Shown here: one piece after another, positions 4,826 through 54,709 of the stretch | Layout of the letters: the number at the start of each line of letters is the position of its first letter | How positions within the stretch are numbered: the stretch's first letter is position 1 | IMG/VR virus record: IMGVR_UViG_3300009545_000027 | Span: 1-54,709 of that record | Reading direction: 5' to 3' (one strand) | DNA length: 54,709 nt | DNA from: a virus | Notes under the pieces: generated by a model | Told to the model about the DNA's origin: nothing | Seen by the model: only the letters and a program-made list of their open reading frames with translations | Database searches by the model: none | Program-made: the position numbers and the translations under genes

Positions 4826-5203
4826 ATGTGTTTCTTTCGCGTTTCGATAGATCCCGCGACAATCGATCGTATCGGCGACAAGCTGTCGACGGTCCTTGAT
4901 CGGTTTGCGCTCCAACTAGGCAACCGCGAACAACTCGACAGAATCGAACTCGCGATAACCAAATTAAAAAGTGAGGAAACTGAAATGGCAGCTACGTTAG
5001 ACGATTTGGTATTGGAAGTACAGGAAGTCAAAACCGTCAACGCGTCCGCGATTACCTTGATCAACGGTATCGCGGCGCAACTGAAGGCCGCACAGGGTGA
5101 TCCGACAAAGATTGCTGCGATTATCGCGGACCTGAAAGGCAGCGCAACCGACCTTGCGGCGGCAGTTACGGCAAACACCACGACGCCCGCGACCGACGCC
5201 TAA
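4826..5203 (+). CDS. Small helical tail-region protein
   Basis: The 125-residue protein is almost entirely helical, with heptad-like Leu/Ile spacing. An internal ATG at 4985 preceded by GAGGAAACTGAA would give a 72-residue product that on its own looks like a small phage protein seen behind tail genes (ends AAAVTANT plus Pro/Thr tail). Both starts are possible: the upstream start has only a weak purine stretch (AAGAAG), the internal one a better ribosome binding site. No enzymatic motif is visible. A structural or chaperone-like role in the tail module is only inferred from position. Confidence 0.55.
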   Translation: MCFFRVSIDPATIDRIGDKLSTVLDRFALQLGNREQLDRIELAITKLKSEETEMAATLDDLVLEVQEVKTVNASAITLINGIAAQLKAAQGDPTKIAAIIADLKGSATDLAAAVTANTTTPATDA

Positions 5204-5216
5204 AAACCGGGGTATC

Positions 5217-5291
5217 CCCCTTTCCGCCGTCAAAGACATGGTGGACTCGTCCACCAGGGCTTAAACGCCCTTTATTTGAGGCGGAAAGGGG
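5217..5291 (+). other. Multi-branched structured intergenic element
   Basis: The gap 5204-5395 has no convincing gene but is rich in inverted repeats. A perfect 12-bp outer stem, CCCCTTTCCGCC (5217-5228) with GGCGGAAAGGGG (5280-5291), encloses two hairpins: GGTGGA-CTCG-TCCACC (5240-5255) and AGGGC-TTAAAC-GCCCT (5256-5271). GGGG-TAT-CCCC around 5209-5219 could compete with the outer stem, and a small CGGG/CCCG hairpin follows at 5307-5320. It lies in the leader of the strongly SD-preceded gene at 5396. It could be a terminator/antiterminator, an RNA processing site or a regulatory leader. Confidence 0.55.
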
Positions 5292-5395
5292 CTTTAAACG
5301 GGTTTTCGGGACGCTACCCGATGAAAGTGACCCGCGCGGCAATCGAAACGCGTCAAGCGCCTGAAAAACGCCGAATTCGATTAAGGAGAAAAAGG

Positions 5396-8404: not shown

Positions 8405-8422
8405 TTGGTTTTGTCCGGTAGG

Positions 8423-8516
8423 AAGCGCGTTCAGTACCGTGCCGTCATCATGTTCATCGTCGACCGGAGAGCGAATCCATCGACGGGTGACTAACGGCGC
8501 GGTACAGAACGCGCTT
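8423..8516. other. Long imperfect inverted repeat in intergenic gap
   Basis: Between the genes ending at 8525 and starting at 8404 lies an arm AAGCGCGTTCAGTACCG (8423-8439) and its near-complement CGGTACAGAACGCGCTT (8500-8516), one mismatch in 17. The pairing extends inwards through TGCCGT / ACGGCG with wobbles, and an inner CGTCGA/TCGACG stem is possible. The non-Watson-Crick pairs are G-U in + strand RNA but A-C in the other, so the fold is better in a + transcript. No gene is seen here. Confidence 0.5.
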
Positions 8517-8524
8517 TCTACATT

Positions 8525-11833: not shown

Positions 11834-11898
11834 ACTATACAGAACCCGGTTTCTTGAGGCGGAAACTGCCCTAGGACAGTTCCGCATCGGGTTCCTGG
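11834..11898. repeat. Copy 1 of dispersed GGAAACTGCCCTAG element, within a nested hairpin
   Basis: GGAAACTGCCCTAG occupies 11861-11874. It is part of a nested inverted repeat on the minus strand: outer GAACCCG/CGGGTTC and inner GCGGAACTG/CAGTTTCCGC with one bulged base, overlapping the end of the TOPRIM gene. Beyond it lies a TATAGT box (11834-11839, minus) for the zinc/HTH gene. It may terminate the upstream transcript while the promoter starts a new one. Confidence 0.5.
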
Positions 11899-12854
11899 TT
11901 GTTCGGGTTCTCTTTCTTCTTCAAATCACGTAGAAACTGAATGACGGACGGCAACTTCTTTGCGACGGTGTCGAGTGTTTTGCGCCCGCGATGTTCAAGC
12001 TTCGTTGCTTCATTCCAAATCGTCTCATCACGGAATTGCTTGACTGCCCGCGTGATGAGGTCGACAAGCGTGCGCGGGTCAAGTGCGTCAAGTTCCCACG
12101 ATTCATCACCGTATTTTTGTTGGTACTCCGCAAATCTGCTGTCGGTGGTCTTTGCCGGGTTCGGCGGCGGATTGTAGCGTTCGACCTGTGGCATGTTCAA
12201 GGCAATACGTTGCACGTGCACCCGATCGCCCACGAACAAAGACAGGCGTTCGAAAATGTCGCGCGACATATCCATTCCTGATGGATCGTGATCACCTAAA
12301 TGAATGATGTGAACCTTCTTGCCGTGCTGCTGTTGCCGCAATAGCCGTTGCGACGCTTCCCACATTGCCGTCTGCGACGTGTAGCCTTTGCAGGCGAAAT
12401 ACCGGACGTCAAGCGGTCCGCAAGCTTGACCGAGTACGTCTTCAAGCGCTTCCTTTTCGACCCAAACTTCAACGTACTGTGGCTGATCCTTCCACTTGTC
12501 GATGCGGTAGGAGTTTGCAGCAACCTTGATGACGTCGGACGGTTTTTCGTAATGCTGTGTGGCACGAGAAGCGCGCCCGCGATCGATAATTGCGTACCAG
12601 TCGACGAGACCCGCAAGCCGCGCATCAGAAAGAAGATCACCAAGTTTGTCGTAATTTTCCGGGCGGTTGACAATGCCGTTCTTGTCCGCCCATTCTTGCG
12701 GGAACAGGTCGCGAGCAACGCCTTGATAATACAACTGGCGTAAAGTCAGGCTGAATCCGGATCGTTGGTACTCTCCGATGATTCCGTTCATCACTTCAAT
12801 TAACCGAAGCTTTAACGGTGAAAACTTGATGTCTTTGTACTTGATCTTCGGCAT
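11871..12854 (-). CDS. TOPRIM-domain protein (TopoVI-A/Spo11-like fold)
   Basis: The 327-residue protein starts at ATG 12854, overlapping the HNH stop (ATGA); an upstream in-frame ATG at 12896 is less likely. The N-terminal half has a winged-helix-like region (LTLRQLYYQGVARDLFP); the centre has a TOPRIM signature, VEKEALEDVLG (the catalytic Glu) and HLGDHDPSGMDMS (the DxD). Such proteins occur in phages and are usually annotated as hypothetical or topoisomerase VI A-like. The catalytic tyrosine of a true Spo11 protein cannot be assigned with confidence, so nuclease or topoisomerase-like activity is inferred. Confidence 0.75.
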   Translation of the reverse strand: MPKIKYKDIKFSPLKLRLIEVMNGIIGEYQRSGFSLTLRQLYYQGVARDLFPQEWADKNGIVNRPENYDKLGDLLSDARLAGLVDWYAIIDRGRASRATQHYEKPSDVIKVAANSYRIDKWKDQPQYVEVWVEKEALEDVLGQACGPLDVRYFACKGYTSQTAMWEASQRLLRQQQHGKKVHIIHLGDHDPSGMDMSRDIFERLSLFVGDRVHVQRIALNMPQVERYNPPPNPAKTTDSRFAEYQQKYGDESWELDALDPRTLVDLITRAVKQFRDETIWNEATKLEHRGRKTLDTVAKKLPSVIQFLRDLKKKENPNNQEPDAELS

Positions 12855-13378
12855 CAGATGACCTCGCGATATGACTTGCGGTTTACGATGTTGCAAACGC
12901 TGCTATTTGTTATTCCGAATCGTTTTCCAATAGACGCCTGTGATTCGATGCCTTTTGCGTATTCTTTTCGAACTGCACGAACCTGTCTTGCTGAAAGCTT
13001 GGCTTGCCCATTTGCGGTACCGGACGCAACACGCCCTTTTTGATCACGATCGCGCATGTTGTCAAGATGCGTGCCGAGGAACAGATGTGCTGGGCGAACG
13101 CATGCATTTACGTCGCACGTGTGGCAAACAAAAAGTCCTTTTGGCACAGGTTTCTTTTTATGAATCGCGAAAGAAAGAACGTGTGCTGTTATCGGGAGTT
13201 TACCGAGTGCCGACGCGTTTAAAATGCCGTATCCGGCGGCATCTTTTCCGCCAGTCCATAACCAGCATGTTTTTGTCTTTTTAACACGCTTCCAAAAGTC
13301 TTTGATGACCTGTTCAAGGGTCCGTGGTTTCGGACCCCTTTTATTTGGTGGTCGTGGTGGGCAGTGCGTTAACTGCAT
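12854..13378 (-). CDS. HNH homing-type endonuclease with C-terminal HTH
   Basis: The 174-residue protein has the HNH_3 pattern: CWLWTGGKDAAGYG at the N-terminus, LSFAIHKK, then CHTCDVNACVRPAHLFLGTH with DN for metal and zinc binding, typical of free-standing phage HNH endonucleases. The C-terminal 45 residues (LSARQVRAVRKEYAKG...) form a small helix-turn-helix for target recognition. It lies between two coupled genes (TAATG upstream, ATGA downstream), so it is well integrated in the operon. A nearly matching HTH occurs alone at 20875-21045. Confidence 0.85.
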   Translation of the reverse strand: MQLTHCPPRPPNKRGPKPRTLEQVIKDFWKRVKKTKTCWLWTGGKDAAGYGILNASALGKLPITAHVLSFAIHKKKPVPKGLFVCHTCDVNACVRPAHLFLGTHLDNMRDRDQKGRVASGTANGQAKLSARQVRAVRKEYAKGIESQASIGKRFGITNSSVCNIVNRKSYREVI

Positions 13379-15261: not shown

Positions 15262-15306
15262 AAGGCACAGGTTGGAATATGTTGAATGTTGGATTATAAC
15301 ATTTTA

Positions 15307-15412
15307 AATAGGGCCGATTTTGGTCTTCCAACACGGTCTATAATGTTTTAAATAGGGCCGATTTTGGTACATTTCGATAGTTAGACAAGCGTCTAATAGG
15401 GCCGATTTTGGT
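15307..15412 (+). repeat. Three iterons at exact 44-bp pitch (candidate origin)
   Basis: AATAGGGCCGATTTTGGT occurs perfectly at 15307-15324, 15351-15368 and 15395-15412. The first two follow TATAAC/TATAAT-like boxes (TTTTAAATAGGG context); the third follows a TTAGAC-AAGC-GTCTAA palindrome. The gap 15262-15620 has no gene. Iterons beside an initiator-like gene and before the DnaB-type helicase suggest a replication origin; operators or tandem promoters with a common start sequence are alternatives. Confidence 0.7.
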
Positions 15413-19582: not shown

Positions 19583-19650
19583 GGAAACTGCCCTAGAATC
19601 GTTTTTCGGGGTACCGGACGGTAGTCTATACCCCGGAATCGATCCTAGGG
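19583..19650. repeat. Copy 2 of the GGAAACTGCCCTAG element in nested inverted repeat
   Basis: GGAAACTGCCCTAG lies at 19583-19596. Its end forms an outer stem CCCTAGAATCG (19591-19601) with CGATCCTAGGG (19640-19650), one mismatch; inside are CGGGGTA (19607-19613) and TACCCCG (19629-19635). A further AATTTG-AG-CAAATT palindrome follows at 19654-19667. No gene fits in the 19573-19676 gap. Confidence 0.6.
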
Positions 19651-19676
19651 CTTAATTTGAGCAAATTCGAGGTCAC

Positions 19677-24005: not shown

Positions 24006-25796
24006 ATGCCGCGCAACCTTTTCGGCGACATCGTTTCAGATCCAAAACGAAAAGGCGCGGCTTTAGGGTGCCTATCGTGTCCGCTTGACAAACTCAAATC
24101 CGAAGGCGTCGTCAAAAATATCCGCGTCGATTCCGTAAAAGGTCGACACGTTTTCATTTGGGGTTTGTGTCCGGACGCGCTTGAAAACGAAACAGGCGAG
24201 GAACTAGGCGGACGTGCAGGCGCAATACTTTGGAAAGCATTACGCGCGGTAGGAATCGAAAGAAGCGACTGCGACGTTCAGAACGTCGTCAGGTGCCACC
24301 CCTATTATTCCGATGCAGTAGAACCGCCCGCAAAGGCGTTAAAGTGCTGTTCTATTTACAATGCGGAAGCGCTTGAACGTGGTGGCGGACGTGCCGACGT
24401 TCATCTAGTTCTCGGGAAGCTTGCCGGGAAGCAACTTCTAGGGAATCGATTAGCGCGTGCCAAGAAGTCGGCAGTGTGGCATGACGAATGGGGTGCGTAC
24501 GTCGTCGTAACGGAACACCCGCAAAAGCTGTTGCGTGCAGGTTCGAAAGGATGGCTGTACAAACAGTTTCGCGACAAGATGCGTGCGGTTGCCGCGATCT
24601 TGAATAACCCCGGACGATTCGGGTACGTGAAAGCGCAAGACTATCGTGCAGTTGAAACGCCTGCACAGATGGATTTTTTGAAAGCTGAAATCAAGAGGCA
24701 TGCGGCGCGTGGCGAACGTGTTAGCGTTGACATTGAAGACGACGTCATCGACGGCAAACGCATTATCTTGATGGTCGGGTTCGGAATGGGGGCATACGAC
24801 GTTAATGGCACCTGGAAAGGTAAAGCCCGGTGTGTCGTTCTCAATCATCCGGAAGCAGATCAATCACCCGAACGTATCGACCCGCTAGTTGAATCGTTGT
24901 GCGAGATTTTCGAAGATGCATCGATTTTGAAAGTTTTCCATCACGGTTCTTACGACGTGCCTGTCGTGCGCAAATCTTTTGGTTGTGTGATTCGTGGTTA
25001 TGATTTCGACACACAGTATGCGGCGTACCTGTGGTATCCGCACTTGCGCGCCTATGGTCTCGACGCACTTGTCGGGCACTTTCATGTTGAATTTGGCGAT
25101 TACAAGCTTATGGTGGCGAAGTGGATGCCACACCTGTCGAATGCACCGCTTGACACACTGATCACGTACAACTGTGCGGACTGCGATTTAACGAAGCGAA
25201 TCGAAGCCGCATCACGTGATCACATCGTTCACCCGCTACTTCAGATCTACATTCACTGTGCCTTTACACTCGGTGCAATGGAAAAACGCGGACCGATTCT
25301 TGATTACGAATCGCATGCCAAGATCGCGGATGTCGTGCGCCCGCGTGTCGAGAAGTTGAAGCGCGATTTGCAGCAAATGAGCGGTGATCCAAATTTCAAC
25401 CCGAACACTCCGCAACACATCGCGAAACTGCTGTTCGACAAATTGAATCTGCGGCAGATTGCAGGACGGTCGACAGGCAAAGACATCTTGACCGAATTGA
25501 TTGCAACCGCGCGGACGAAAGCCGGAAAGCACGCCTGTACGCTGGTTCGTGATTATCGTCAAATTTCAAAGATGGATTCAACTTATTTGGTAGGGTTCAT
25601 GCGGTCCGCCGAATTGCATGACGGGCAACTCCGTACAGTTTGGTGGTTGACAGGTGCGGCAACCGGGCGCTTGCGGTCCGGACGTTCCGACAAAGCGGAA
25701 GTCGAAGAAGGTGTGATCAACTTTCAAAACCTGCACGGCAACCCGCTATTGAAGAACTTGCTAGTCAGCGACGTTGATTGGAGAAAAGCTCTGTGA
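24006..25796 (+). CDS. Split family A DNA polymerase, N-part: UDG-like + 3'-5' exonuclease + polymerase start
   Basis: The 596-residue protein carries: (1) residues about 20-200, a family 4/5 uracil-DNA-glycosylase-like domain with Cys 22, 25, 97 and 114 in the iron-sulphur spacing, NVVRCHP, LGKLAGKQLLG and TEHPQKLLR; (2) from about 238, a DEDDy proofreading exonuclease (VDIED, HHGSYD, YNCADCD); (3) a PolA thumb/palm with TGRLRSG and NLLVSDVDWRKAL. It stops exactly where motif A should begin. The rest is at 28967-29875. It starts directly after the clamp stop. The two halves presumably assemble, as known for split T4-like polymerases of family B. Confidence 0.88.
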   Translation: MPRNLFGDIVSDPKRKGAALGCLSCPLDKLKSEGVVKNIRVDSVKGRHVFIWGLCPDALENETGEELGGRAGAILWKALRAVGIERSDCDVQNVVRCHPYYSDAVEPPAKALKCCSIYNAEALERGGGRADVHLVLGKLAGKQLLGNRLARAKKSAVWHDEWGAYVVVTEHPQKLLRAGSKGWLYKQFRDKMRAVAAILNNPGRFGYVKAQDYRAVETPAQMDFLKAEIKRHAARGERVSVDIEDDVIDGKRIILMVGFGMGAYDVNGTWKGKARCVVLNHPEADQSPERIDPLVESLCEIFEDASILKVFHHGSYDVPVVRKSFGCVIRGYDFDTQYAAYLWYPHLRAYGLDALVGHFHVEFGDYKLMVAKWMPHLSNAPLDTLITYNCADCDLTKRIEAASRDHIVHPLLQIYIHCAFTLGAMEKRGPILDYESHAKIADVVRPRVEKLKRDLQQMSGDPNFNPNTPQHIAKLLFDKLNLRQIAGRSTGKDILTELIATARTKAGKHACTLVRDYRQISKMDSTYLVGFMRSAELHDGQLRTVWWLTGAATGRLRSGRSDKAEVEEGVINFQNLHGNPLLKNLLVSDVDWRKAL

Positions 25797-28951: not shown

Positions 28952-28966
28952 GTTGTGGAGGCGTTC

Positions 28967-29875
28967 TTGAACTCGGAGATCTTAGAGTTAACTACATTCC
29001 TAGCTTTCGATTTTTCACAGGCAGAATTAAGAATGCTAGCCGAGATCAGTGGCGACGCATTGTTGATCAAACAATTCCAAGAAGCGGCGGCAGATCCGGG
29101 AAACCCGTTGAAGGATATCCATTGTCAGGTCGGGCATTCAATGACAGGTTGGGACCACATCAAGATCAAGGAATCAAAGTCGACGCGCAAGGTCGTCAAG
29201 AACATTCAGTTCGGGCTTGTTTTTGGAAAACAAAAGAAGGGCATGTACGACTACGTCGTGCAGAAGATTCGCGAAATCGACGGCGAAAAAGCGGACCTGA
29301 CAGGCATCACCCGCGAGTTCATCGAAAAGTGCGTTGATGCGTACTTCGCCCGGTATAAAGGCGTTGCGCGGTACATGAAGCGGATGCAAGAACAGGTCGA
29401 GACCGACGGATACGTTGATACGCTTTATGGGTTCCGTCGACAGATTTTCGAAGATGATGCGCGTGATACCTTCATGGGCAATCAAGCAATCAATACGCCT
29501 GTGCAAGGGTCTGCACACCAACTGTTGTTGATCGCGCTTGCCCTTCTTCACATGAAGCCGAAGACATACGCGTTACTGCAAAATGTCTTGATGGAAGTGC
29601 ATGACGCGCTTGTGTTCTTAGTGAAGGTTCGCGATTTACCAGCAGCATTCTTGCAGGGAAAACACCTTCTTGAACGTGGTGTCGTCGACTACACCGAACG
29701 GCATTTCAAGCGGAAACTAAAGGTCCCACTGCTTGCGGAAGCTGAAGCAGGTTTCTGTTATGGCACGTGTGTCGAGTATTCAGGAGAACCGCTTGACGAG
29801 TGGTTAGCGAAATGGCGGAAGAACCACACCGACAAGGAAGCCGAAGCATGGAAGAAGCTTTTGTCAGCGGCATGA
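28967..29875 (+). CDS. Split family A DNA polymerase, C-part: motifs A, B and C
   Basis: Start is placed at TTG 28967, because GGAGG lies five bases upstream; the frame is open from GTG 28955. The product of about 302 residues begins just before motif A (FLAFDFSQAELRMLAE), continues with the O-helix RKVVKNIQFGLVFG (motif B) and motif C MEVHDALVF. Compared with E. coli PolI, the DE pair of motif C is DA, and the O-helix Tyr before Gly is Phe. These residues are the catalytic palm and fingers; the protein cannot work without the N-part at 24006-25796. Confidence 0.9.
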   Translation: MNSEILELTTFLAFDFSQAELRMLAEISGDALLIKQFQEAAADPGNPLKDIHCQVGHSMTGWDHIKIKESKSTRKVVKNIQFGLVFGKQKKGMYDYVVQKIREIDGEKADLTGITREFIEKCVDAYFARYKGVARYMKRMQEQVETDGYVDTLYGFRRQIFEDDARDTFMGNQAINTPVQGSAHQLLLIALALLHMKPKTYALLQNVLMEVHDALVFLVKVRDLPAAFLQGKHLLERGVVDYTERHFKRKLKVPLLAEAEAGFCYGTCVEYSGEPLDEWLAKWRKNHTDKEAEAWKKLLSAA

Positions 29876-41017: not shown

Positions 41018-41047
41018 CATAATATTATAACGATCCTCCGAAGTCCA
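41018..41047 (-). promoter_or_regulatory. Palindromic-box promoter P5 (minus strand)
   Basis: TATAATATTATG on the minus strand (41018-41029, one change from the palindrome) with TGGACT at 41042-41047, 17 bases from the inner TATTAT. It faces away from P6, 46 bases apart. Confidence 0.75.
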
Positions 41048-46892: not shown

Positions 46893-46919
46893 AATAGTTT
46901 GACCTTGGAGGGTCGAATA

Positions 46920-47321
46920 ATGAACAGTAGAAGAATAGGGATCATCTTGTTTATGGTGCTGGCGATTGTCGCGATTACCAGTTTCGGCGGCGCGCACGGT
47001 GTCAAGCCGATACAGGTTGCGCATTCGCAAGATTCTGGCGGGTGTACCGGGTGCTCGACCGACATGGCCTGTTATCAGTGCCACATCATGAACTACTATT
47101 GGGAAAACGCCGTTAACTACGGGTGCATCGGTTGCAGTTCGAATTACCCGTACAAACTCAAGTCGGATCAGTGGCGGCGCGATAGTGTCACGGGAAACAA
47201 GCTTTCTTTCGTCAAAGGCTTTGAAAAGTTGCCACTGCCACCAGACCATAAGCAGAGTGCTATCGACTTCCATAAGAAGCCGAACCCCTGTCAGCGGAAA
47301 ATGAGCACTATCACCGAATAG
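46920..47321 (+). CDS. Secreted Cys-rich protein with CxxCH motif
   Basis: Start ATG 46920 behind GGAGGGTCG. The first 27 residues form a signal peptide (basic RR, hydrophobic IGIILFMVLAIVAITSF, then GGAHG). The mature part has eight Cys, including CTGC, CYQCH and CIGC. CxxCH is the c-type haem motif, but only one such copy is present, so disulphides or zinc are as likely. Probably periplasmic in a Gram-negative host. Role unknown. Confidence 0.72.
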   Translation: MNSRRIGIILFMVLAIVAITSFGGAHGVKPIQVAHSQDSGGCTGCSTDMACYQCHIMNYYWENAVNYGCIGCSSNYPYKLKSDQWRRDSVTGNKLSFVKGFEKLPLPPDHKQSAIDFHKKPNPCQRKMSTITE

Positions 47322-47336
47322 TTCCCGCAAACATTC

Positions 47337-47391
47337 CGCGTGTTGGAATAGTACGGGTATAAGGTACACACCCGATGAAATCCAACACGCG
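47337..47391 (+). other. Nested inverted repeat overlapping a promoter region
   Basis: CGCGTGTTGGA (47337-47347) and TCCAACACGCG (47381-47391) are perfect 11-bp arms; inside are CGGGT/ACCCG. The arms include the TTGGA/TCCAA pair seen around the palindromic promoters. TATGGAATTATA (47393-47404), a decayed palindrome, follows, then GATTC and ATG. It may be an operator or an RNA hairpin. Confidence 0.6.
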
Positions 47392-47409
47392 TTATGGAAT
47401 TATAGATTC

Positions 47410-47640
47410 ATGCAAACCTTAACCGCAGCAACGAAGCAGACGAAGTTAGAACACGGTTCGGTGTTCGGACCGTTCAGCCGTTATCAGTTGATCCGGCATG
47501 AGTCGCACCGAGGACCCGAGTTTTCGATGTGGTTCGTGCAGGACGCCGAAAAGGTCGACCCGCAGTTCCCGCAGTTCCCTGCGGTCATCCGTCAGGCGTT
47601 CACGATCACGGACGCGGTCAAAGGGTTGGCGGTCGAATGA
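47410..47640 (+). CDS. Small protein, probably leaderless
   Basis: The 76-residue product has a compact domain with YQLIRHESHRGPEFSMWFVQD and a Phe/Pro-rich middle. The start follows TTATAGATTC directly, the same bases as before the leaderless gene at 13566, and has no Shine-Dalgarno. Function unknown. Confidence 0.68.
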   Translation: MQTLTAATKQTKLEHGSVFGPFSRYQLIRHESHRGPEFSMWFVQDAEKVDPQFPQFPAVIRQAFTITDAVKGLAVE

Positions 47641-47819
47641 CTGCCAAATTAGTCGTCGACCACGAAGCCAAGCACCGGGCGGAACGCCTGTGCTTATCGC
47701 TTCAAGCGTCGTTGCACAACGTTTCAGAATGTTATCCTGACAGGCTTCGCGAGTCGAAGCGCCTGTACCGGGAACTTGGCAAGCTGGTGAACAGCTTTGC
47801 GGTAAAGGTGGCAAAATGA
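47637..47819 (+). CDS. 60-residue helical protein
   Basis: Start ATG 47637 overlaps the previous stop (ATGA). Mostly helical with a basic centre (HRAERLCLSLQASLHNVSEC, then RLRESKRLYRELGKL). Stop overlaps the next start. Function unknown. Confidence 0.65.
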   Translation: MTAKLVVDHEAKHRAERLCLSLQASLHNVSECYPDRLRESKRLYRELGKLVNSFAVKVAK

Positions 47820-47971
47820 CGCAACGGGAACTTGTTGACGCGGGATATGAAGCCGCGCTTGCAGGCAAGCCATGTGATGCACCAACGTCACGAGAACGTG
47901 ACCGGGCAGCGTGGGAACAAGGTTGGCGTGCAGGTAAGCACACAAAGGATTTGAAATCGAATGAAGCGTAA
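47816..47971 (+). CDS. RMF/CrpP-like small protein
   Basis: The 51-residue product shows AGYEAALAGKPCDAPTSRER and RAAWEQGWRAGK, the YxxGxxA..G....P......WxxGW pattern of ribosome modulation factor-like proteins that are common in proteobacteria and their phages. Such proteins can bind ribosomes; here this is inferred from the motif only. ATGA overlap with the previous stop. Confidence 0.6.
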   Translation: MTQRELVDAGYEAALAGKPCDAPTSRERDRAAWEQGWRAGKHTKDLKSNEA

Positions 47972-47989
47972 CGTCGCAAAGGAACGTGC

Positions 47990-48145
47990 ATGTACTTGGA
48001 ATCCGCGTTCCGATTTGCGGAACATGCACACATCGACAAGTCGTCGGCAGATCATCCGGTATTTGCGGCAATGTACCTGCACGGTTCCGGCAACATCGCT
48101 ATGCCGGAACGCAAATCAGCGGGCGCTAAAGCGGTGGCGACGTGA
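47990..48145 (+). CDS. Small protein (frame choice uncertain)
   Basis: MYLESAFRFAEHAHIDKSSA onward, 51 residues, with AAGGAACGTGC before ATG and codon use like its neighbours. Another frame (47961-48161) would give a 66-residue Arg/Cys-rich protein overlapping the next start; it looks less natural. One of the two is probably real. Confidence 0.5.
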   Translation: MYLESAFRFAEHAHIDKSSADHPVFAAMYLHGSGNIAMPERKSAGAKAVAT

Positions 48146-48157
48146 AAGGCGAATTAA

Positions 48158-48475
48158 GTGATCGTGATCAAGGTCATGCAGACAATTCGGTACGAAGGAC
48201 AGATACCCGTTAGGCTTCGCCAGTTCTGCGACAACAACCGCCATAAGGTCGTTGAAGTTATTCACGGTGGCGGATACGCGACCGATTCAGGCGAAGCCTA
48301 TGACGTTGCTTTACGTCGTGGTTGGAAGGATGGAAGCGACGCGCTAGGCACCACACACAGCATTATTGCGACGTCCTACATGGAAATGATTGCCGCAATC
48401 AAGGGCGCAATTCCCTGTGATTGCGAAGACTGCAAGCCAAAGCCCCGTAAAAACCTGTTTTCTTCGCGTTTCTAA
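48158..48475 (+). CDS. Small protein with CDCEDC motif
   Basis: The 105-residue product starts with GTG behind AAAGGCGAATTAA. It has an alpha/beta look with VEVIHGGGYATDSGEAYDVA and ends with CDCEDCKPKPRKN, a possible metal knuckle and basic tail. Function unknown. Confidence 0.68.
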   Translation: MIVIKVMQTIRYEGQIPVRLRQFCDNNRHKVVEVIHGGGYATDSGEAYDVALRRGWKDGSDALGTTHSIIATSYMEMIAAIKGAIPCDCEDCKPKPRKNLFSSRF

Positions 48476-48506
48476 GCCTGCCACGGCACTTTCACCCCCT
48501 TCCTGG

Positions 48507-48655
48507 TAGTTTTCCGCGTCCGACCCGTTGTAAGCTAACCTACGGTACTGCGGTGAATGAACTTCGGTTCTGCTGGTAAAGGTTGCAACAGTACGGGTCA
48601 ACACTCATGTTCCCGGACATGAGAGAATTCCCCGAAGCCGCAGTACCCCTACCTT
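48507..48655 (+). ncRNA. Candidate structured RNA with possible pseudoknot
   Basis: The gap 48476-48745 lacks a gene but is highly structured. Perfect outer stem GGTACTGCGG (48544-48553) / CCGCAGTACC (48638-48647); stem TTCGG/CCGAA (48563-48567, 48632-48636); hairpin CTCATGT-TCCCGG-ACATGAG (48604-48623). Upstream GACCCGT (48522-48528) is complementary to ACGGGTC (48593-48599) inside the outer loop, which would make a pseudoknot. GGTAG (48505-48509) and CTACC (48649-48653) may close it. It does not match a riboswitch or tRNA that I know. Confidence 0.55.
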
Positions 48656-48683
48656 TTGTTATCCAAAATCAGTACTTAATTTA

Positions 48684-48708
48684 TTGGACTTCGTGTTGGA
48701 TTTAAAAT
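48684..48708 (+). promoter_or_regulatory. Diverged member of the palindromic promoter family
   Basis: TTGGAC (48684-48689), then TTGGAT, then TAAAATACTCTT at the -10 position; 13 bases separate TTGGAC and TAAAAT, as in P1. Confidence 0.45.
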
Positions 48709-48745
48709 ACTCTTCATTCAGGCGGGCAGACCGCGAGGAGAAAAA

Positions 48746-48838
48746 ATGACACGACTTTACAAGATGCTGACGCGTTCGGGCTTCGAACGCAGAATTCGAC
48801 GCCTGTTGATCAAAGCGGCGAAACGGAGGATCTTCTAA
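48746..48838 (+). CDS. 30-residue highly basic peptide
   Basis: GAGGAGAAAAA precedes ATG. MTRLYKMLTRSGFERRIRRL and LIKAAKRRIF: amphipathic, about one third Arg/Lys. It could bind nucleic acid or membranes. It is paired with a hydrophobic peptide two bases downstream. Confidence 0.55.
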   Translation: MTRLYKMLTRSGFERRIRRLLIKAAKRRIF

Positions 48839-48839
48839 C

Positions 48840-48947
48840 ATGACGACCTTGGTGACACTGTTGATCCCTGTCGGCGTGATTGCTGCGATCCTTCACGGGC
48901 TTGGTTTACTACCCGCAGTTGTTTCGGCGATCACGTCGGCACTCTGA
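48840..48947 (+). CDS. 35-residue hydrophobic membrane peptide
   Basis: MTTLVTLLIPVGVIAAILHG and LGLLPAVVSAITSAL: almost all hydrophobic, one membrane helix or a re-entrant pair. CGGAGG lies upstream within the previous gene's end. Holin-like, toxin-like or regulatory roles are possible; nothing decides. Confidence 0.55.
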   Translation: MTTLVTLLIPVGVIAAILHGLGLLPAVVSAITSAL

Positions 48948-48967
48948 AAATAAATGTTGGATTTTGC

Positions 48968-48997
48968 TAGACAATCCGGCAGCAGTATAATATTATA
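48968..48997 (+). promoter_or_regulatory. Palindromic-box promoter P11
   Basis: TTGGATTTTGC, TAGACA (48968-48973), 17 bases, TATTAT inside TATAATATTATA (48986-48997), then TTTCAGGAGAGC. The Shine-Dalgarno begins about where the RNA should start. Confidence 0.85.
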
Positions 48998-49015
48998 GTT
49001 TCAGGAGAGCAAACC

Positions 49016-49279
49016 ATGAGAACCGCACAGACGGCAGCACAAATCGCGAACACAGTTCAGCTTTTTGGATTTAGCAATCCGCGCATGGTGACCATAACGC
49101 GCGACGTCAAAACAAAGTTAGGTGTTGCATTCCGCAAGGGTGACGCACTTGTCACGGTCTACGAATCCGGGATGATCGAATCAGGTCCGTATATGGGGCA
49201 ACAAGGTTACTCCGCGTTCTCGATCCGCAACAACGTTTTCACGGCCATTCGTCCTACACACTTTCGTTTTGGTGTGTAG
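49016..49279 (+). CDS. Small unknown protein
   Basis: The 87-residue product: helical start, basic KTKLGVAFRKGDALVTVYES, then a beta-rich end. AGGAGAGCAAACC before ATG. Its last codons form part of a terminator-like hairpin (49253-49280). Function unknown. Confidence 0.72.
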   Translation: MRTAQTAAQIANTVQLFGFSNPRMVTITRDVKTKLGVAFRKGDALVTVYESGMIESGPYMGQQGYSAFSIRNNVFTAIRPTHFRFGV

Positions 49280-49280
49280 G
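49253..49280 (+). terminator. Hairpin over the gene end
   Basis: CCTACACAC / GTGTGTAGG, perfect 9-bp stem with a 10-base loop containing TTTCGTTTTG, covering the stop codon of the 87-residue gene. Confidence 0.6.
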
Positions 49281-49333
49281 CACAGGTAGGTTATTGTTCT
49301 TGTGACCTTGAAAAAATAATTGTTGGATTTCAC

Positions 49334-49363
49334 TAGACAATCCGACAGCAGTATAATATTATA
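49334..49363 (+). promoter_or_regulatory. Palindromic-box promoter P12
   Basis: TTGGATTTCAC, TAGACA (49334-49339), 17 bases, TATTAT inside TATAATATTATA (49352-49363). Nearly identical to P11. Confidence 0.85.
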
Positions 49364-49383
49364 GTTTTAGGAGAGCAAACGAC

Positions 49384-49545
49384 ATGAAAACGGCAACGAT
49401 CAGCTTGACGGCGGAACAGATGACGAGATTAGCGAACATCCTTTCAGATCACGCGGTTGATCTTTGCGACAACGGAAACGAAGATTCCGAAGACGCGAAG
49501 CTTTGCTACTTCGCTGCAAAAGCACTTCGTCAGGCGGCAAAGTAA
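49384..49545 (+). CDS. 53-residue helical protein
   Basis: MKTATISLTAEQMTRLANIL and later EDAKLCYFAAKALRQAAK, helical and acidic in the middle. AGGAGAGCAAACGAC before ATG. Stop shares one base with the next start. Function unknown. Confidence 0.7.
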   Translation: MKTATISLTAEQMTRLANILSDHAVDLCDNGNEDSEDAKLCYFAAKALRQAAK

Positions 49546-49775
49546 TGACCGGAACTAAACAGGTGGCACAGCGGATTGTGAACGCGGAAGAAAACTTCAT
49601 CGAAACCTTGATGGAGATCGCGGGCATCAATCGCGAAGACGCTGCAAAGGCAATGGCCACCATGTTGAAGCTGAAGGTCGCAAAGCTTGACGCCGTGATC
49701 GGTCGCATTACCGTAAAGCACGGTGCATATCTTGAAGCTTCCGCCATTCACAACGCGGTTGCTTTCAAAAAATAA
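49545..49775 (+). CDS. 76-residue helical protein
   Basis: Start ATG 49545 (TAATG overlap). QVAQRIVNAEENFIETLMEI, then AGINREDAAKAMATMLKLKV: all-helical, similar in style to phage small regulatory proteins. Function unknown. Confidence 0.7.
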   Translation: MTGTKQVAQRIVNAEENFIETLMEIAGINREDAAKAMATMLKLKVAKLDAVIGRITVKHGAYLEASAIHNAVAFKK

Positions 49776-49789
49776 ATGTTGGATTTTGC

Positions 49790-49819
49790 TAGACATCGGC
49801 GATCACGTATAATATTATA
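49790..49819 (+). promoter_or_regulatory. Palindromic-box promoter P13
   Basis: TTGGATTTTGC, TAGACA (49790-49795), 17 bases, TATTAT inside TATAATATTATA (49808-49819), then TTTCAGGAGAGC. Confidence 0.85.
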
Positions 49820-49838
49820 GTTTCAGGAGAGCAAACCG

Positions 49839-50321
49839 ATGACCGAGACATTCACAATTAAGCAGTTTGAAGAAGCGTTACCGACGGATAAGACGGGTGC
49901 ACCGCTTTGGCGGTATGTTGGATTCGTTCAAGGCGAGCATGTTTACGCCGTTGACGTCAAAGAGGGCGTTGTGATTCGCGTTCGGTCATCGATCGGTGTT
50001 TCGGGTGTTGCGGCGGGCGCGGGTGAAGACTCGATTCGCGTCATGCTTGCGGCGGACGATAAGGGTACGCCGCTCGGGTCGAAAGATCAACGTTGGGTTA
50101 CGCGTACGAAGAACTGGCGCGCCAACATGAAGAACCTGATCCGCAAGTTTTGGATTCTTGGTGCACAGTTGCCAGTGTGCCCGACGTGCGGCAAGCGTGC
50201 AGGTGCCTATAAGTCGAAGACAGGCGAACATGCTGGTGATTGGTACGCGAAGTGCTACCCGTGCGATTGGTGGGCAAAGTGGTTGTTCGCCGAAACGACT
50301 GAACGCAAGGAGGTCGCTTGA
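49839..50321 (+). CDS. Unknown protein with C-terminal zinc ribbon
   Basis: The 160-residue product has a beta-rich N-terminal part and a zinc ribbon near the end, LPVCPTCGKRAGAYKSKTGE then CYPCDWWAKWLF (CxxC...CxxC). AGGAGAGCAAACCG before ATG. Probably nucleic-acid binding. Stop overlaps the next TTG start. Confidence 0.75.
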   Translation: MTETFTIKQFEEALPTDKTGAPLWRYVGFVQGEHVYAVDVKEGVVIRVRSSIGVSGVAAGAGEDSIRVMLAADDKGTPLGSKDQRWVTRTKNWRANMKNLIRKFWILGAQLPVCPTCGKRAGAYKSKTGEHAGDWYAKCYPCDWWAKWLFAETTERKEVA

Positions 50322-50557
50322 TCGGTATTCAGGTTTTCATCATCGACCCTGCGGATACAAGCCCGCAGGGTTTGCCTGATGGAAGTATTTTGCGTTTCAA
50401 GAAAGCACGGAATGCTGACATTGTGTTCGCGGTCATCATCGATGTTTTCGGCAACATCCGGGCAACTGGCAAGAAGGTCGAAGAAAAGTACGCATTTGCG
50501 TCACGTTGGGATGTACTCGGTCAAGTAGGGTTGTGGGCACCGCAACCGAAAGGGTAA
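50318..50557 (+). CDS. Small beta-rich protein
   Basis: The 79-residue product starts with TTG overlapping the previous stop (GGAGGTCGC upstream). IGIQVFIIDPADTSPQGLPD and DIVFAVIIDVFGNIRATGKK suggest a beta sandwich. Function unknown. Confidence 0.68.
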   Translation: MIGIQVFIIDPADTSPQGLPDGSILRFKKARNADIVFAVIIDVFGNIRATGKKVEEKYAFASRWDVLGQVGLWAPQPKG

Positions 50558-50561
50558 AGGA

Positions 50562-50771
50562 ATGGCAACACGGAAAGACAAGATGCGCGCGATTTACGAA
50601 ATCATGGCCGAACACCGGGCGGTTGAAGGTGTTGCGGATTATGAAGATAGCCCAACAATGCGAAAGATGAAGGACACGGTCACGAAGCTTGTGCAGCGCG
50701 AACGTGCACAGGCGATCGAAGCGACACGGGCGTACCTATACGGTGAACGTGCAACAGCACCAAAGGCATAA
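50562..50771 (+). CDS. Small helical basic protein
   Basis: The 69-residue product MATRKDKMRAIYEIMAEHRA... is helical and basic. AAAGGA precedes ATG. Function unknown. Confidence 0.68.
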   Translation: MATRKDKMRAIYEIMAEHRAVEGVADYEDSPTMRKMKDTVTKLVQRERAQAIEATRAYLYGERATAPKA

Positions 50772-50776
50772 ACTTT

Positions 50777-51010
50777 ATGGAAACACGGGAAACGTTACGA
50801 CAACTGTTCCGCGAGCAAAGACGACAGGTTTGCAATCGTGTCGGCGTGCCATTCAGTTACTTTTATGGTGAACGCCCGGTGTGGGAATCCGGGCGAATCT
50901 TTACCGATATAACCGGAAATAAGTATCAGGCAGTTTTGCGCAACGGTCAACGATGTTGGGGTAGTTATTTTGAGGAACCGAAGCAGGGGCTTTCGCCCCT
51001 GTCGGATTAG
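50777..51010 (+). CDS. Small unknown protein, convergent with next gene
   Basis: The 77-residue product begins METRETLRQLFREQRRQVCN and ends GLSPLSD. The terminal codons contain a CAGGGGC-TTTC-GCCCCTG hairpin. It overlaps the opposing gene by four bases. Confidence 0.68.
   Translation: METRETLRQLFREQRRQVCNRVGVPFSYFYGERPVWESGRIFTDITGNKYQAVLRNGQRCWGSYFEEPKQGLSPLSD
50984..51001. terminator. Bidirectional hairpin at convergent gene ends
   Basis: CAGGGGC (50984-50990), TTTC loop, GCCCCTG (50995-51001), perfect 7-bp stem just inside the end of the + gene and just beyond the minus gene. No T run. Confidence 0.6.
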
Positions 51011-51420
51011 GACTTCTTCGGGATTTGTGGGGCTTTTGGCTTGATGACATCGCCCTTCTTCGCTTGCGCACATGGATCTGATAGCGTTCCTGTGCACGGG
51101 TCCGGGCATACAGAGCAAAAGCCGGGTGGACAGCACCCGACCCACGGATCAGGCGGCAGACTCGGACCGTGACTATCTTGCGCCCACAACAGGCGCGGAG
51201 TGATGTAAAGCGAAGGCATCACGGCAACCGGGCGGATGTCGTCTTGCGTATCGCTGTGGGTAACGTGTGAAGGCCACAGCGGAACCGCAGTCGTGAACGT
51301 GAAGTTGAAAACCGATGTTTGGATTTGCGTATGCATCCGTGGCTTTAAGCTTACGGACGCGTGATCAGCACACAGTGCAGACATTGCAATGAGTGGCAAC
51401 AGACAGAGCACTTTTCTCAT
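51007..51420 (-). CDS. Secreted Pro/Cys-rich protein
   Basis: Start is ATG 51420; the longer frame to 51579 runs antisense over the + gene. The 137-residue product begins with a signal peptide (MRKVLCLLPLIAMSALCADHA) and ends in a Pro/Cys-rich part (DPWVGCCPPGFCSVCPDPCTG) and a basic tail. Probably periplasmic, disulphide-rich. It is the only minus gene in this region and shares a short divergent promoter region with the next. Confidence 0.6.
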   Translation of the reverse strand: MRKVLCLLPLIAMSALCADHASVSLKPRMHTQIQTSVFNFTFTTAVPLWPSHVTHSDTQDDIRPVAVMPSLYITPRLLWAQDSHGPSLPPDPWVGCCPPGFCSVCPDPCTGTLSDPCAQAKKGDVIKPKAPQIPKKS

Positions 51421-51454
51421 ACCCGTATCGTATAAGAAGCGAGGATCGACAACG

Positions 51455-51907
51455 ATGGCGTACCCGATACCAGAAAAAGCAGACAAAACCAAAGACCCGG
51501 TACTGTTTGAACGGCAAGAACTTGGAGACTGCCTGCGAACGCATTTTCCGCATTCAGGATGGTGTACGCGGTGCGGCATTCCGTGGGCGCACTTTCATCG
51601 AATCAGCGAAGACACGCACACCACGAACTATTGCGTCGCGGAAGTCGGCGGTACCTGTACAGCATCGTTGCGGGTGTTCGATGAAAACGGTGTGGTCGTG
51701 CCCGGTACGGATGCACATCCGGACATTGAATTGCATGCCGGGTGCTTTCCGATGTGTCAATGGTGTTGGGAGCGTTGCACGATCGAAGAACGTGTTCGGT
51801 ATCACGAAATTTTGATCGATTATACCGACAGTTTCGGACACGGGACCGAAGAAGAACGGCGGCAACATCGTGCCGCCATCATCTATTCGATAAGGCTAGG
51901 TCGGTAA
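51455..51907 (+). CDS. Cys/His-rich protein
   Basis: Start ATG 51455 with GCGAGGATCGACAAC upstream. The 150-residue product has DCLRTHFPHSGWCTRCGIPW, and later CFPMCQWCWERCTIEE, a dense zinc-type pattern. Function unknown. Confidence 0.7.
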   Translation: MAYPIPEKADKTKDPVLFERQELGDCLRTHFPHSGWCTRCGIPWAHFHRISEDTHTTNYCVAEVGGTCTASLRVFDENGVVVPGTDAHPDIELHAGCFPMCQWCWERCTIEERVRYHEILIDYTDSFGHGTEEERRQHRAAIIYSIRLGR

Positions 51908-52272
51908 TGGATATAACAAAAATTAGTGAGTTCAATGATCTTGTCGAAGGTCAACGCAGATTAGAGATTACTGCCCGTATCGGCATGATTCACTTTCAAC
52001 TATCGGGTGGTCGTCTTGTTATGATGGACACGTTTCGACTCGACAGTGAAGAAGTCAGTGCTTTTGTAACGGCGCTTTATGCCGCGAAATCGCGTATTCA
52101 CGGAAAGCCCGAACCTGAAGCCTTTGTCACAATTAACGAACGCCTAGAGAACGAATGCGCGCGACAGCGGGCACAATTAACCGCACAGGCGGACGCGTTG
52201 AAGCATTGGCGGCGGGAAGTCGACGAGATGTCCGCCAAGATCGCGCGGCTTGAAGGGAGAACGTTCGAATGA
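51907..52272 (+). CDS. Unknown protein with C-terminal coiled coil
   Basis: Start ATG 51907 shares a base with the previous stop. The 121-residue product has a beta-rich first half (RIGMIHFQLSGGRLVMMDTF) and a coiled coil (RLENECARQRAQLTAQADAL). Stop overlaps the next start. Confidence 0.7.
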   Translation: MDITKISEFNDLVEGQRRLEITARIGMIHFQLSGGRLVMMDTFRLDSEEVSAFVTALYAAKSRIHGKPEPEAFVTINERLENECARQRAQLTAQADALKHWRREVDEMSAKIARLEGRTFE

Positions 52273-52421
52273 CCGACAAACAGTACAAACGTCTCGTGCT
52301 TCGCGGCATTTGGGCAATTCTGTTCACGTTGTGCCGTATTGCAGTGCGGTTGCCTAACTGCACGCTTAGCAACGATGCTGAAGACATCGAAATTGAATTA
52401 CGTCGCGAGGTCAAACAATGA
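52269..52421 (+). CDS. 50-residue membrane peptide
   Basis: ATGA overlap at both ends. MTDKQYKRLVLRGIWAILFT, then LCRIAVRLPNCTLSN: basic N-terminus, one hydrophobic helix, acidic tail. Function unknown. Confidence 0.6.
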   Translation: MTDKQYKRLVLRGIWAILFTLCRIAVRLPNCTLSNDAEDIEIELRREVKQ

Positions 52422-52618
52422 ACTACGACGCCGACATCGTACAGGAAGCGCGTGCAACGGTCTTGAAACCGGAAGCCCACGAAGACAACATCGATTGTTG
52501 GATTGCAGTTCGTTCCGCAGTCGATAACCTGCAAGATCAAATGCATGACTCGTTCTACATCGCGAGGTCTGCACGCGTGACCGTGCGGCTTGTCATTGAG
52601 GTCGAAAAGCAGTTATGA
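52418..52618 (+). CDS. 66-residue unknown protein
   Basis: MNYDADIVQEARATVLKPEA onward, helical then beta (ARVTVRLVIEVEKQL). ATGA overlap with the previous stop. Function unknown. Confidence 0.68.
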   Translation: MNYDADIVQEARATVLKPEAHEDNIDCWIAVRSAVDNLQDQMHDSFYIARSARVTVRLVIEVEKQL

Positions 52619-52878
52619 AGAAGATCGAAATGACGTACGGCGACATGGCACACGCCGCACAGATTTATGCATTCTTGCGATGGATGTACGAGAACAAGGT
52701 CACAGTGCCAAAAGCAAAAGTGGATTCGCAGTCGATTGCGATTAAATACGCAATTGCAAATCGTGATGCCCAGTATCAGGCACTTTTAAAGAAACTCGAC
52801 AAGAAGGTGAAACATGACAGTAAACGACCTGTATCAAATGCTCGGAAACTTAAAGGGCGACATCATGGTATTTCCTGA
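52615..52878 (+). CDS. 87-residue helical protein
   Basis: MKKIEMTYGDMAHAAQIYAF and a basic C-terminal tail (KKLDKKVKHDSKRPVSNARK). Overlaps the next gene by 65 bases in another frame, so its tail is doubtful. Function unknown. Confidence 0.6.
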   Translation: MKKIEMTYGDMAHAAQIYAFLRWMYENKVTVPKAKVDSQSIAIKYAIANRDAQYQALLKKLDKKVKHDSKRPVSNARKLKGRHHGIS

Positions 52879-52975
52879 CGATGACGGCGAACAACGTTTA
52901 CTTGACATCGTCAGCGTTGATTTCATTCCGGAACGCAATTGTTGGGCGATTCGTGCCAAACCGGAGGTCCGATGA
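52814..52975 (+). CDS. 53-residue unknown protein
   Basis: AAGGTGAAAC precedes ATG inside the previous gene. MTVNDLYQMLGNLKGDIMVF, then PDDDGEQRLLDIVSVDFIPE: a neat small alpha/beta domain of a type common in phages. Stop overlaps the next start. Confidence 0.62.
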   Translation: MTVNDLYQMLGNLKGDIMVFPDDDGEQRLLDIVSVDFIPERNCWAIRAKPEVR

Positions 52976-53322
52976 ACGATTCAGACAAGCAAACCGCCGC
53001 TATGTTGTTCGCACAGGAATCGATGTCGCTGATCGAGAAATACCGATTGGCGAAGCGGCAAACCGCGCAAGCATACGCATTTGAATGCAAGATGCTTGAA
53101 GAAGCACGGAAAGCACCGCTACCGTTGCGCCTGCGTCCTGCTGTCGCCGATGACATCAAACGCGGCGCGCTTATCTGGTACAAGCACGGGGACGATGGTC
53201 CTTTTTGGCAAATCGTCGACGAAGTAAGAAATCCAAATAGCGCGTTCAAGGCATATGTGGCGGAAGACGGAAGCCGTTACGGGCTTGACGACGCATTCGT
53301 CGAGGTCAAGGATGGTGAATGA
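52972..53322 (+). CDS. 116-residue unknown protein
   Basis: Start ATG 52972 behind CGGAGGTCCG. Helical N-terminal half (MLFAQESMSLIEKYRLAKRQ) and a beta-rich C-terminal half (RGALIWYKHGDDGPFWQIVD). Function unknown. Confidence 0.7.
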   Translation: MNDSDKQTAAMLFAQESMSLIEKYRLAKRQTAQAYAFECKMLEEARKAPLPLRLRPAVADDIKRGALIWYKHGDDGPFWQIVDEVRNPNSAFKAYVAEDGSRYGLDDAFVEVKDGE

Positions 53323-53575
53323 ATTGTTAGACGCGCATCCGACAGACCACATGCCGGAAAACATTGTAATTGCCTGCATGCAACGTGATGGACCGCCGTT
53401 TATTTTTGCAGCACCGACCGCGCAACCTGTGGGCACACGGTTCGAACTTGGTGGGTTTGTGTTCTCGATCATGCGTGTCGCCACACGTGCAGAATACCGG
53501 GCAAATCAAAAGCGCGTCGGCGGACCGGACATCGGGCTTAGCACAGACTTCTATTTTGAGGCGGTAACAGATTGA
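53312..53575 (+). CDS. 87-residue unknown protein
   Basis: Start ATG 53312 (or GTG 53315) overlaps the previous gene; CGAGGTCAAGG upstream. Beta-rich: PPFIFAAPTAQPVGTRFELG, FVFSIMRVATRAEY. Stop overlaps the next TTG. Confidence 0.66.
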   Translation: MVNELLDAHPTDHMPENIVIACMQRDGPPFIFAAPTAQPVGTRFELGGFVFSIMRVATRAEYRANQKRVGGPDIGLSTDFYFEAVTD

Positions 53576-53856
53576 AAAAAATTATTGGAATTACTTTTTT
53601 GGCATTGTTGATGATCTCGTGCGAGGATGGCGGCACACCGGACACGCAGGTTAACACCACAACCGGAAACAGCACGATTGAAATGCGTCCGTTAGGCGTC
53701 GCGCATGCGGGTCTGAATGAACCGATCAACGGGTGCAAGGTCTATGCGTTCAAGATTGAAGGGTTCTATCAGACCGCCGTCTATTGCAAGAACGGCACTG
53801 TCACGACGGCAAGCGCGCACCACGAAAAAACCGATAAAGATGAATCAGGTGAATGA
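53572..53856 (+). CDS. Small lipoprotein-like secreted protein
   Basis: The 94-residue product (TTG start) has a signal peptide MKKIIGITFLALLMISC with a lipobox-like ending in Cys 17, then a short disordered Thr/Asn stretch and a small domain with two more Cys. Phage lipoproteins of this type often block receptors or superinfection; that role is inferred. It is coupled to a membrane protein downstream. Confidence 0.7.
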   Translation: MKKIIGITFLALLMISCEDGGTPDTQVNTTTGNSTIEMRPLGVAHAGLNEPINGCKVYAFKIEGFYQTAVYCKNGTVTTASAHHEKTDKDESGE

Positions 53857-54065
53857 TGGAACACGATCCGATGAGCAACTTTTTCATTAACCAGCAAATC
53901 GGGCGTGCCCGCATTTTTTGGGGACTCTTCTATCTGGTGCGCGGCATACTGGCGGGTGCAGCAGCAGGTAAAGCAATCGGTTCTTGGCACTGGTACGGTT
54001 GGGGTGGCGCGTTTATTGTGCTCGCAATTAGCGACATGATCGATTACGTCAGGTGTGGGAAGTGA
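53853..54065 (+). CDS. Two-pass membrane protein
   Basis: The 70-residue product has two hydrophobic segments (IFWGLFYLVRGILAGAAAG and WYGWGGAFIVLAISDMI) and small charged ends. ATG overlaps the lipoprotein stop. A membrane partner of the lipoprotein is possible. Confidence 0.68.
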   Translation: MMEHDPMSNFFINQQIGRARIFWGLFYLVRGILAGAAAGKAIGSWHWYGWGGAFIVLAISDMIDYVRCGK

Positions 54066-54313
54066 TGCGAAAAAAGATAGAAGCGATCATCAAGGACCTG
54101 AAAAAGCTTAATCGTGAGAACTTGTGTGAAGCCACCTTCTACGAACACGATTCAGATTTTTTGTATGGTTCGGCATATGGGCGCGCATGCGAACAGGAAC
54201 GGATGATCAAGGTGCTGAAGGCAGTGATCAAGCCCGTAAAGGTGGACCCGGTCAAGAATGTCAAGCATCCCGCAGTAGAGGCAGTGCGGCGGATGAACAA
54301 GCGTCAACGATGA
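54065..54313 (+). CDS. 82-residue helical protein
   Basis: MRKKIEAIIKDLKKLNRENL onward; basic ends with an acidic middle. Start overlaps the previous stop. Function unknown. Confidence 0.66.
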   Translation: MRKKIEAIIKDLKKLNRENLCEATFYEHDSDFLYGSAYGRACEQERMIKVLKAVIKPVKVDPVKNVKHPAVEAVRRMNKRQR

Positions 54314-54579
54314 AGACGTCACCGTTAAGCTTTGGAAATTACGTTTTTCTCGAAAGGGTTGCGCGTGAACCGCAGACATTCCGGGCAAGTTCATTCGAAA
54401 CGGATTTGCAAAAGCGTGGATTCATCGCGATCGTAGAGCTAGGCATTCAGAATATTGAACGCGTCTACACAGCCACACAAGCGGGAGTTGCGCACTTGAA
54501 GACACACAAGCGCCCGGATATTCCAAAACAGAAATCGTACAAGGTGGTCGAACTGTTTATCAACGGGGCAGGAATATGA
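54310..54579 (+). CDS. 89-residue unknown protein
   Basis: Start ATG 54310 overlaps the previous stop (ATGA). MKTSPLSFGNYVFLERVARE, FIAIVELGIQNIERVYTATQ: winged-helix-like pattern possible. Function unknown. Confidence 0.66.
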   Translation: MKTSPLSFGNYVFLERVAREPQTFRASSFETDLQKRGFIAIVELGIQNIERVYTATQAGVAHLKTHKRPDIPKQKSYKVVELFINGAGI

Positions 54580-54709
54580 AACATTTGGTTCTATCAATCC
54601 ATAACATCAATGACCTGAATATCTTGTTGGAAAAGCGTATCGACGAACTCGTACAGATGAACACGGAAGCCGCGTTCAAGAAAATACGACAGCTTCAAGG
54701 ATTGCGCAC
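54576..54709 (+). CDS. Start of an unknown gene cut by the window edge
   Basis: ATG 54576 overlaps the previous stop. The visible 44 residues (MKHLVLSIHNINDLNILLEK...) are helical and Leu-rich; the 3' end is beyond the window. Confidence 0.6.
   Translation, partial: MKHLVLSIHNINDLNILLEKRIDELVQMNTEAAFKKIRQLQGLR

Follow-up and report, generated by a model that had tools for sequence, protein, structure and literature searches.

Phage mRNAs of the T7 type carry intercistronic stem-loops that are processed by RNase III. The element analysed here resembles these stem-loops in that it lies in a gap between phage genes, lacks a U-tract and has several counterparts in its genome, whereas it differs from them by a closing stem of 10–11 bp with a branched interior, and cleavage is here only proposed. 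It is also reminiscent of intrinsic (Rho-independent) terminators, as a GC-rich stem at what would be the end of an operon, ahead of the next promoter, but no U-run directly follows the stem and an 84-nt interior takes the place of a short loop. A more remote resemblance, a possible crossing of two helices, is to the HDV-like ribozymes, which are known from phages in the form of theta ribozymes, associated with tRNAs (PMC10879173).

The element belongs to IMGVR_UViG_3300009545_000027, a whole IMG/VR virus record of the linear class, all 54,709 bases of which were analysed and are called the window. The gap that contains it (Table 1) holds no ORF and no coding signal, all six frames scoring between −14 and −35, which agrees with a preliminary description of the region as non-coding. 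That description had listed a 10-bp stem, an extension, a 7-bp hairpin and a pairing that crosses the stem, and all of them were found where it had placed them, by reading of the sequence and by inverted-repeat search. The outer stem spans 104 nt, with an interior of 84 nt. The seven Watson–Crick pairs of the 3′ hairpin have pair probabilities of 0.97–1.0, while the extension and the UUCG hairpin are mutually exclusive. Just upstream of the region, a 51-aa ORF (47816–47971) matches ribosome modulation factor (Pfam RMF, E 1.5e-6), and the tiny ORFs on the other side form a tandem pair with good ribosome-binding sites.

Table 1. Features in and around the non-coding gap, in order of their first position
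Feature	Positions	Strand	Basis or remark
Upstream ORF, 105 aa	48158–48475	+	
Non-coding gap, 270 bases	48476–48745	+	Between ORF 48158–48475 and ORF 48746–48838; six-frame coding scores
Proposed crossing helix, 5′ strand GACCCGT	48522–48528	+	Perfect complement, inverted-repeat search
Outer 10-bp stem, 5′ arm GGTACTGCGG	48544–48553	+	Inverted-repeat search
GAAC-UUCG-GUUC hairpin, cUUCGg tetraloop	48559–48570	+	Pair probability 0.86
Extension CTTCGG/CCGAAG	48562–48567/48632–48637	+	Read from sequence; used in constrained fold
Proposed crossing helix, 3′ strand ACGGGTC	48593–48599	+	Inverted-repeat search
Hairpin CTCATGT-TCCCGG-ACATGAG	48604–48610/48617–48623	+	Inverted-repeat search
Outer 10-bp stem, 3′ arm CCGCAGTACC	48638–48647	+	Inverted-repeat search
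Phage promoter match TTGGAC...TTGGATTTAAAATACTC	48665–48720, −10 at 48703	+	Promoter matrix
Basic tiny ORF, 30 aa, AGGAG upstream	48746–48838	+	Sequence and ORF list
Hydrophobic tiny ORF, 35 aa	48840–48947	+	ORF list

The region corresponds to no known RNA. Rfam gave no family for it at the gathering score and none at E ≤ 10, and ARAGORN found 0 tRNA or tmRNA genes, so that the initial impression of neither a tRNA nor a known RNA family is borne out. Covariation is the accepted test of a conserved RNA structure (PMC8250186). Searches for relatives of the region returned only 33-nt chance matches (blastn of the region against phages), no match (distant blastn of 46900–54709 against phages) or none (tblastn of two flanking genes against phages), and five proteins of the window, searched against viral contigs with confirmation by tblastn, gave no relatives. 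The exact hairpin pattern occurs at 36 loci, 0 of them with the flanking helices; the outer-stem pattern has 0 occurrences in viral contigs and 13 chance matches in genomes, with unrelated interiors; and a search with the promoter pattern identified no related phage. The phage polymerase has at most about 26% identity to its best matches among those listed. Judging from these comparisons, the phage is without a near relative in any of the collections searched (phages, viral contigs and genomes).

Several other features of the genome were observed. A gene for an A-family DNA polymerase is split into two parts (24006–25796 and 28955–29875), between which lie a 189-aa ORF and a helicase-methylase fusion. 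The product of the minus-strand ORF 11871–12896 strongly matches the DNA topoisomerase group of PHROGs (phrog_6247, E 1.6e-101), and TAATAGGGCCGATTTTGGT is present three times with a 44-base spacing in a gap at 15295–15412. A very strong, near-perfect long hairpin lies between two minus-strand ORFs at 8418–8521 (z −5 to −8), and is far more structured than the region studied here. A branched stem-loop with a perfect 12-bp closing stem is found at 5208–5292, 14 bases past the stop of ORF 4826–5203, and a long hairpin between two plus-strand genes (19589–19655) starts 17 bases past a stop codon. All three surpass the element at 48507–48655 in strength, and as stem-loops in gaps they speak for the boundary explanation given below.

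Assigning the element to a transcript depends on the position of promoters. The motif TATAATATTATA, with at most one mismatch, occurs at thirteen sites within 10701–49819, most of them with TTGGA(C/T) upstream and mostly with a ribosome-binding site just downstream; these sites are a predicted phage-specific promoter family. The site at 41029 resembles a minus-strand promoter, divergent from 41112. With a matrix made from the TATAATATTATA sites, the −10 match at 48703 has a score of 18.9 (genome mean −47, s.d. 11.8) and is the top scorer in the window once the training sites and their reverse readings are set aside. It sits directly 3′ of the stem element and 5′ of the tiny ORFs. The window scan gave no matrix match just upstream of the element, and a far weaker one, at 47393, lies before ORF 47410 (score 2.6). 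Given its position between the element and the tiny ORFs, the match at 48703 would leave the element upstream of their transcript; with this match downstream and none just upstream, the element, if transcribed, would most simply be the 3′ tail of the upstream operon (end at 48475). A role as leader of the tiny peptides, one of the possibilities raised at first, is unlikely, since the best additional promoter match in the window separates the element from those ORFs.

Stems in such positions are frequent in this phage. Perfect stems of at least 9 bp in gaps number 11, compared with 2.0 ± 1.3 expected (maximum 7 in 300 shuffles), an about five-fold excess, and those of at least 10 bp number 5, compared with 0.52 in shuffled gaps; each set includes one pair of promoter palindromes, without which the counts are 10 and 4, respectively. 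In the segments that run from a gene end to the following promoter, 9-bp stems are present before P44017 and before P45178, a stem of 7 bp within the segment and 11 bp in full before P47393, and stems of 10 and 9 bp before P48703 and P49352, that of P48703 being the outer stem itself. Promoters with a short preceding gap show no stems beyond chance in their gene-end-to-promoter segments. The outer stem thus lies in non-coding sequence, follows a gene end and precedes the next promoter, is longer than expected by chance for its gap, and is one of several in the genome; the enrichment of gap stems and their recurrence between gene ends and promoters support the idea that it is a selected boundary element. 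No U-run immediately follows any of the boundary stems examined, including the outer stem, and the terminator scan detected 0 canonical intrinsic terminators in the region, observations that fit processing or protection better than intrinsic termination. An intrinsic terminator was rejected as a candidate, there being no short-loop GC-rich hairpin with an immediate U-run.

Our preferred explanation, held tentatively and at slightly less than an even chance, is that the outer stem is the stem-loop of an operon boundary, in a 3′-UTR. The element would be part of the 3′ untranslated tail of an operon of small genes, which ends at 48475, and would lie just ahead of the promoter at 48703, as one of at least five stem-loops that this phage has at gene-end/promoter boundaries. 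In the transcript, the long closing stem would be a barrier to 3′ exonucleases, a processing site for a double-strand-specific RNase (RNase III-type), or both; the mRNA upstream would thereby acquire a stable 3′ end, and the unit downstream would be insulated. Neither the crossing helix nor the interior hairpins are required for this, and they may be incidental. We infer the transcription of the element and its role in processing or protection, 3′-end protection, RNase III-type processing and insulation being roles suggested by what is known of phage mRNAs. Several observations count against a boundary stem-loop. With 104 nt, the stem has a longer span than the majority of the other boundary stems, and chance produces long spans more readily; the interior of the stem is at chance level (see below); the promoter before 47410 is weak; and the searches brought no homologue. 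Furthermore, 10-bp stems are in excess in coding regions also (10, compared with 4.2 in shuffles), and part of the excess may therefore be compositional.

How much of the region exceeds chance was addressed by comparison with shuffled sequences and with the rest of the window. The 149-nt region (48507–48655) folds at −46.6 kcal/mol, with a z of −2.1 (−1.9 in a second run); its z is matched or undercut by 12%, and its energy by 23%, of the 150-nt pieces of the whole window (728 pieces, both strands). The best z of sliding 120-nt windows in the gap is −2.8, within the range of 30 coding controls, which reach −4.0, while values of −4 to −7 are attained in other gaps of this genome. When the windows are trimmed to the outer stem, z is −2.5 to −3.5, but shuffled sequence trimmed to a 10-bp stem already has a mean z of −3.0, and the interior of the outer stem, with a z of −0.8, is equalled by 26% of null 10-bp stems from shuffled sequence. 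Folding beyond the outer stem is therefore at chance level: only the outer 10-bp stem exceeds chance among the helices of the region, and the qualification of the region as highly structured is not supported, a z of about −2 being ordinary for this genome. Such values would suit a spacer under no selection, placed after an operon and ahead of a promoter, in which a 10-bp stem and two 7-bp complementarities would have arisen fortuitously, and in keeping with this idea about six 10-bp stems spanning at most 110 nt are expected in a shuffled window (16 are present in the actual one). However, a 10-bp stem has a probability of only 0.005 in this particular gap, and gap stems are strongly enriched as a class. 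In addition, the combination of a 10-bp stem, a 7-bp crossing helix and a 7-bp hairpin, a pattern defined post hoc from the case itself, is found once in the window, compared with a mean of 0.05 in shuffled windows (present in 3 of 60) and 0 of 20,000 local shuffles. A fortuitous fold is a serious if somewhat doubtful possibility, close behind the operon-boundary stem-loop.

The other explanations give the region a function of a different kind. The preliminary description had proposed a possible pseudoknot, and the perfect 7-bp crossing helix is indeed compatible with the outer stem, the extension and the 3′ hairpin. The minimum-energy fold is nevertheless nested: the junction closed by the outer stem joins the UUCG hairpin and a second, weak one to a 3′ arm, where CGGG (48594–48597) is paired with CCCG (48631–48634). 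This CGGG uses bases of the crossing helix, hence the two compete. A constrained fold in which both crossing strands are kept open has an energy of −38.8, to which the crossing helix would add about −11; as a pseudoknot carries a penalty of about +9 kcal/mol, the crossing fold is estimated to be less stable than the nested one by some 6 kcal/mol. Two mutually exclusive states only a few kcal/mol apart by this estimate could suit a regulatory RNA (sRNA or switch) in which GACCCGT/ACGGGTC crosses the outer stem in the functional fold, the CGGG common to both states perhaps allowing an alternation with the nested one. However, a 7-bp complement within 150 nt is common by chance and the searches for homologues were empty. 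By these calculations the pseudoknot is possible, not favoured, and such a pseudoknotted RNA is unlikely, although the sequence leaves room for a phage regulatory RNA as a possible function of the region. An element acting as DNA rather than RNA (an origin, a packaging site or a protein-binding site) would account for inverted repeats in a non-coding gap adjoining a promoter, and the opposite strand folds about equally well; but there are no iterons, no repeats common to other gaps except the promoter motifs and no turn of GC skew at the gap, which makes it quite improbable. The likeness to HDV-like ribozymes goes further than the crossing. In a self-cleaving nested pseudoknot cut 5′ of G48522, the crossing helix would be a 7-bp P1 beginning with G and the outer stem a 10-bp P2, the 3′ hairpin, located between P1′ and P2′, would resemble P4, and the CGAA(G) directly before P2′ fits the CNRA of junction J4/2. 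Nonetheless, the full descriptor with a P3 (3 bp or longer, next to P2 and P1′, short L3) had 0 matches on both strands, P1.1 is not apparent, and there is neither a tRNA nearby as partner nor an Rfam match even at E 10. Furthermore J1/2 measures 15 nt and the distance from P2 to P1′ 39 nt, far longer to our knowledge than in known HDV-like examples. A ribozyme of this family is extremely improbable. It is also very improbable, if a little less so, that the region represents a new class of pseudoknotted phage RNA at an operon boundary, either an HDV-like crossing ribozyme without P3 or a crossing/nested switch. Were the pseudoknot both real and catalytic, it would represent a new variant of ribozyme, but the data presented here do not lead in that direction.

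In conclusion, the operon-boundary stem-loop is the explanation that we tentatively retain. Stem-loops that mark operon boundaries beside a phage-specific promoter, and lack U-tracts, would be useful for annotation rather than surprising, and, if this reading is true, they would show how a divergent phage separates many short transcription units.
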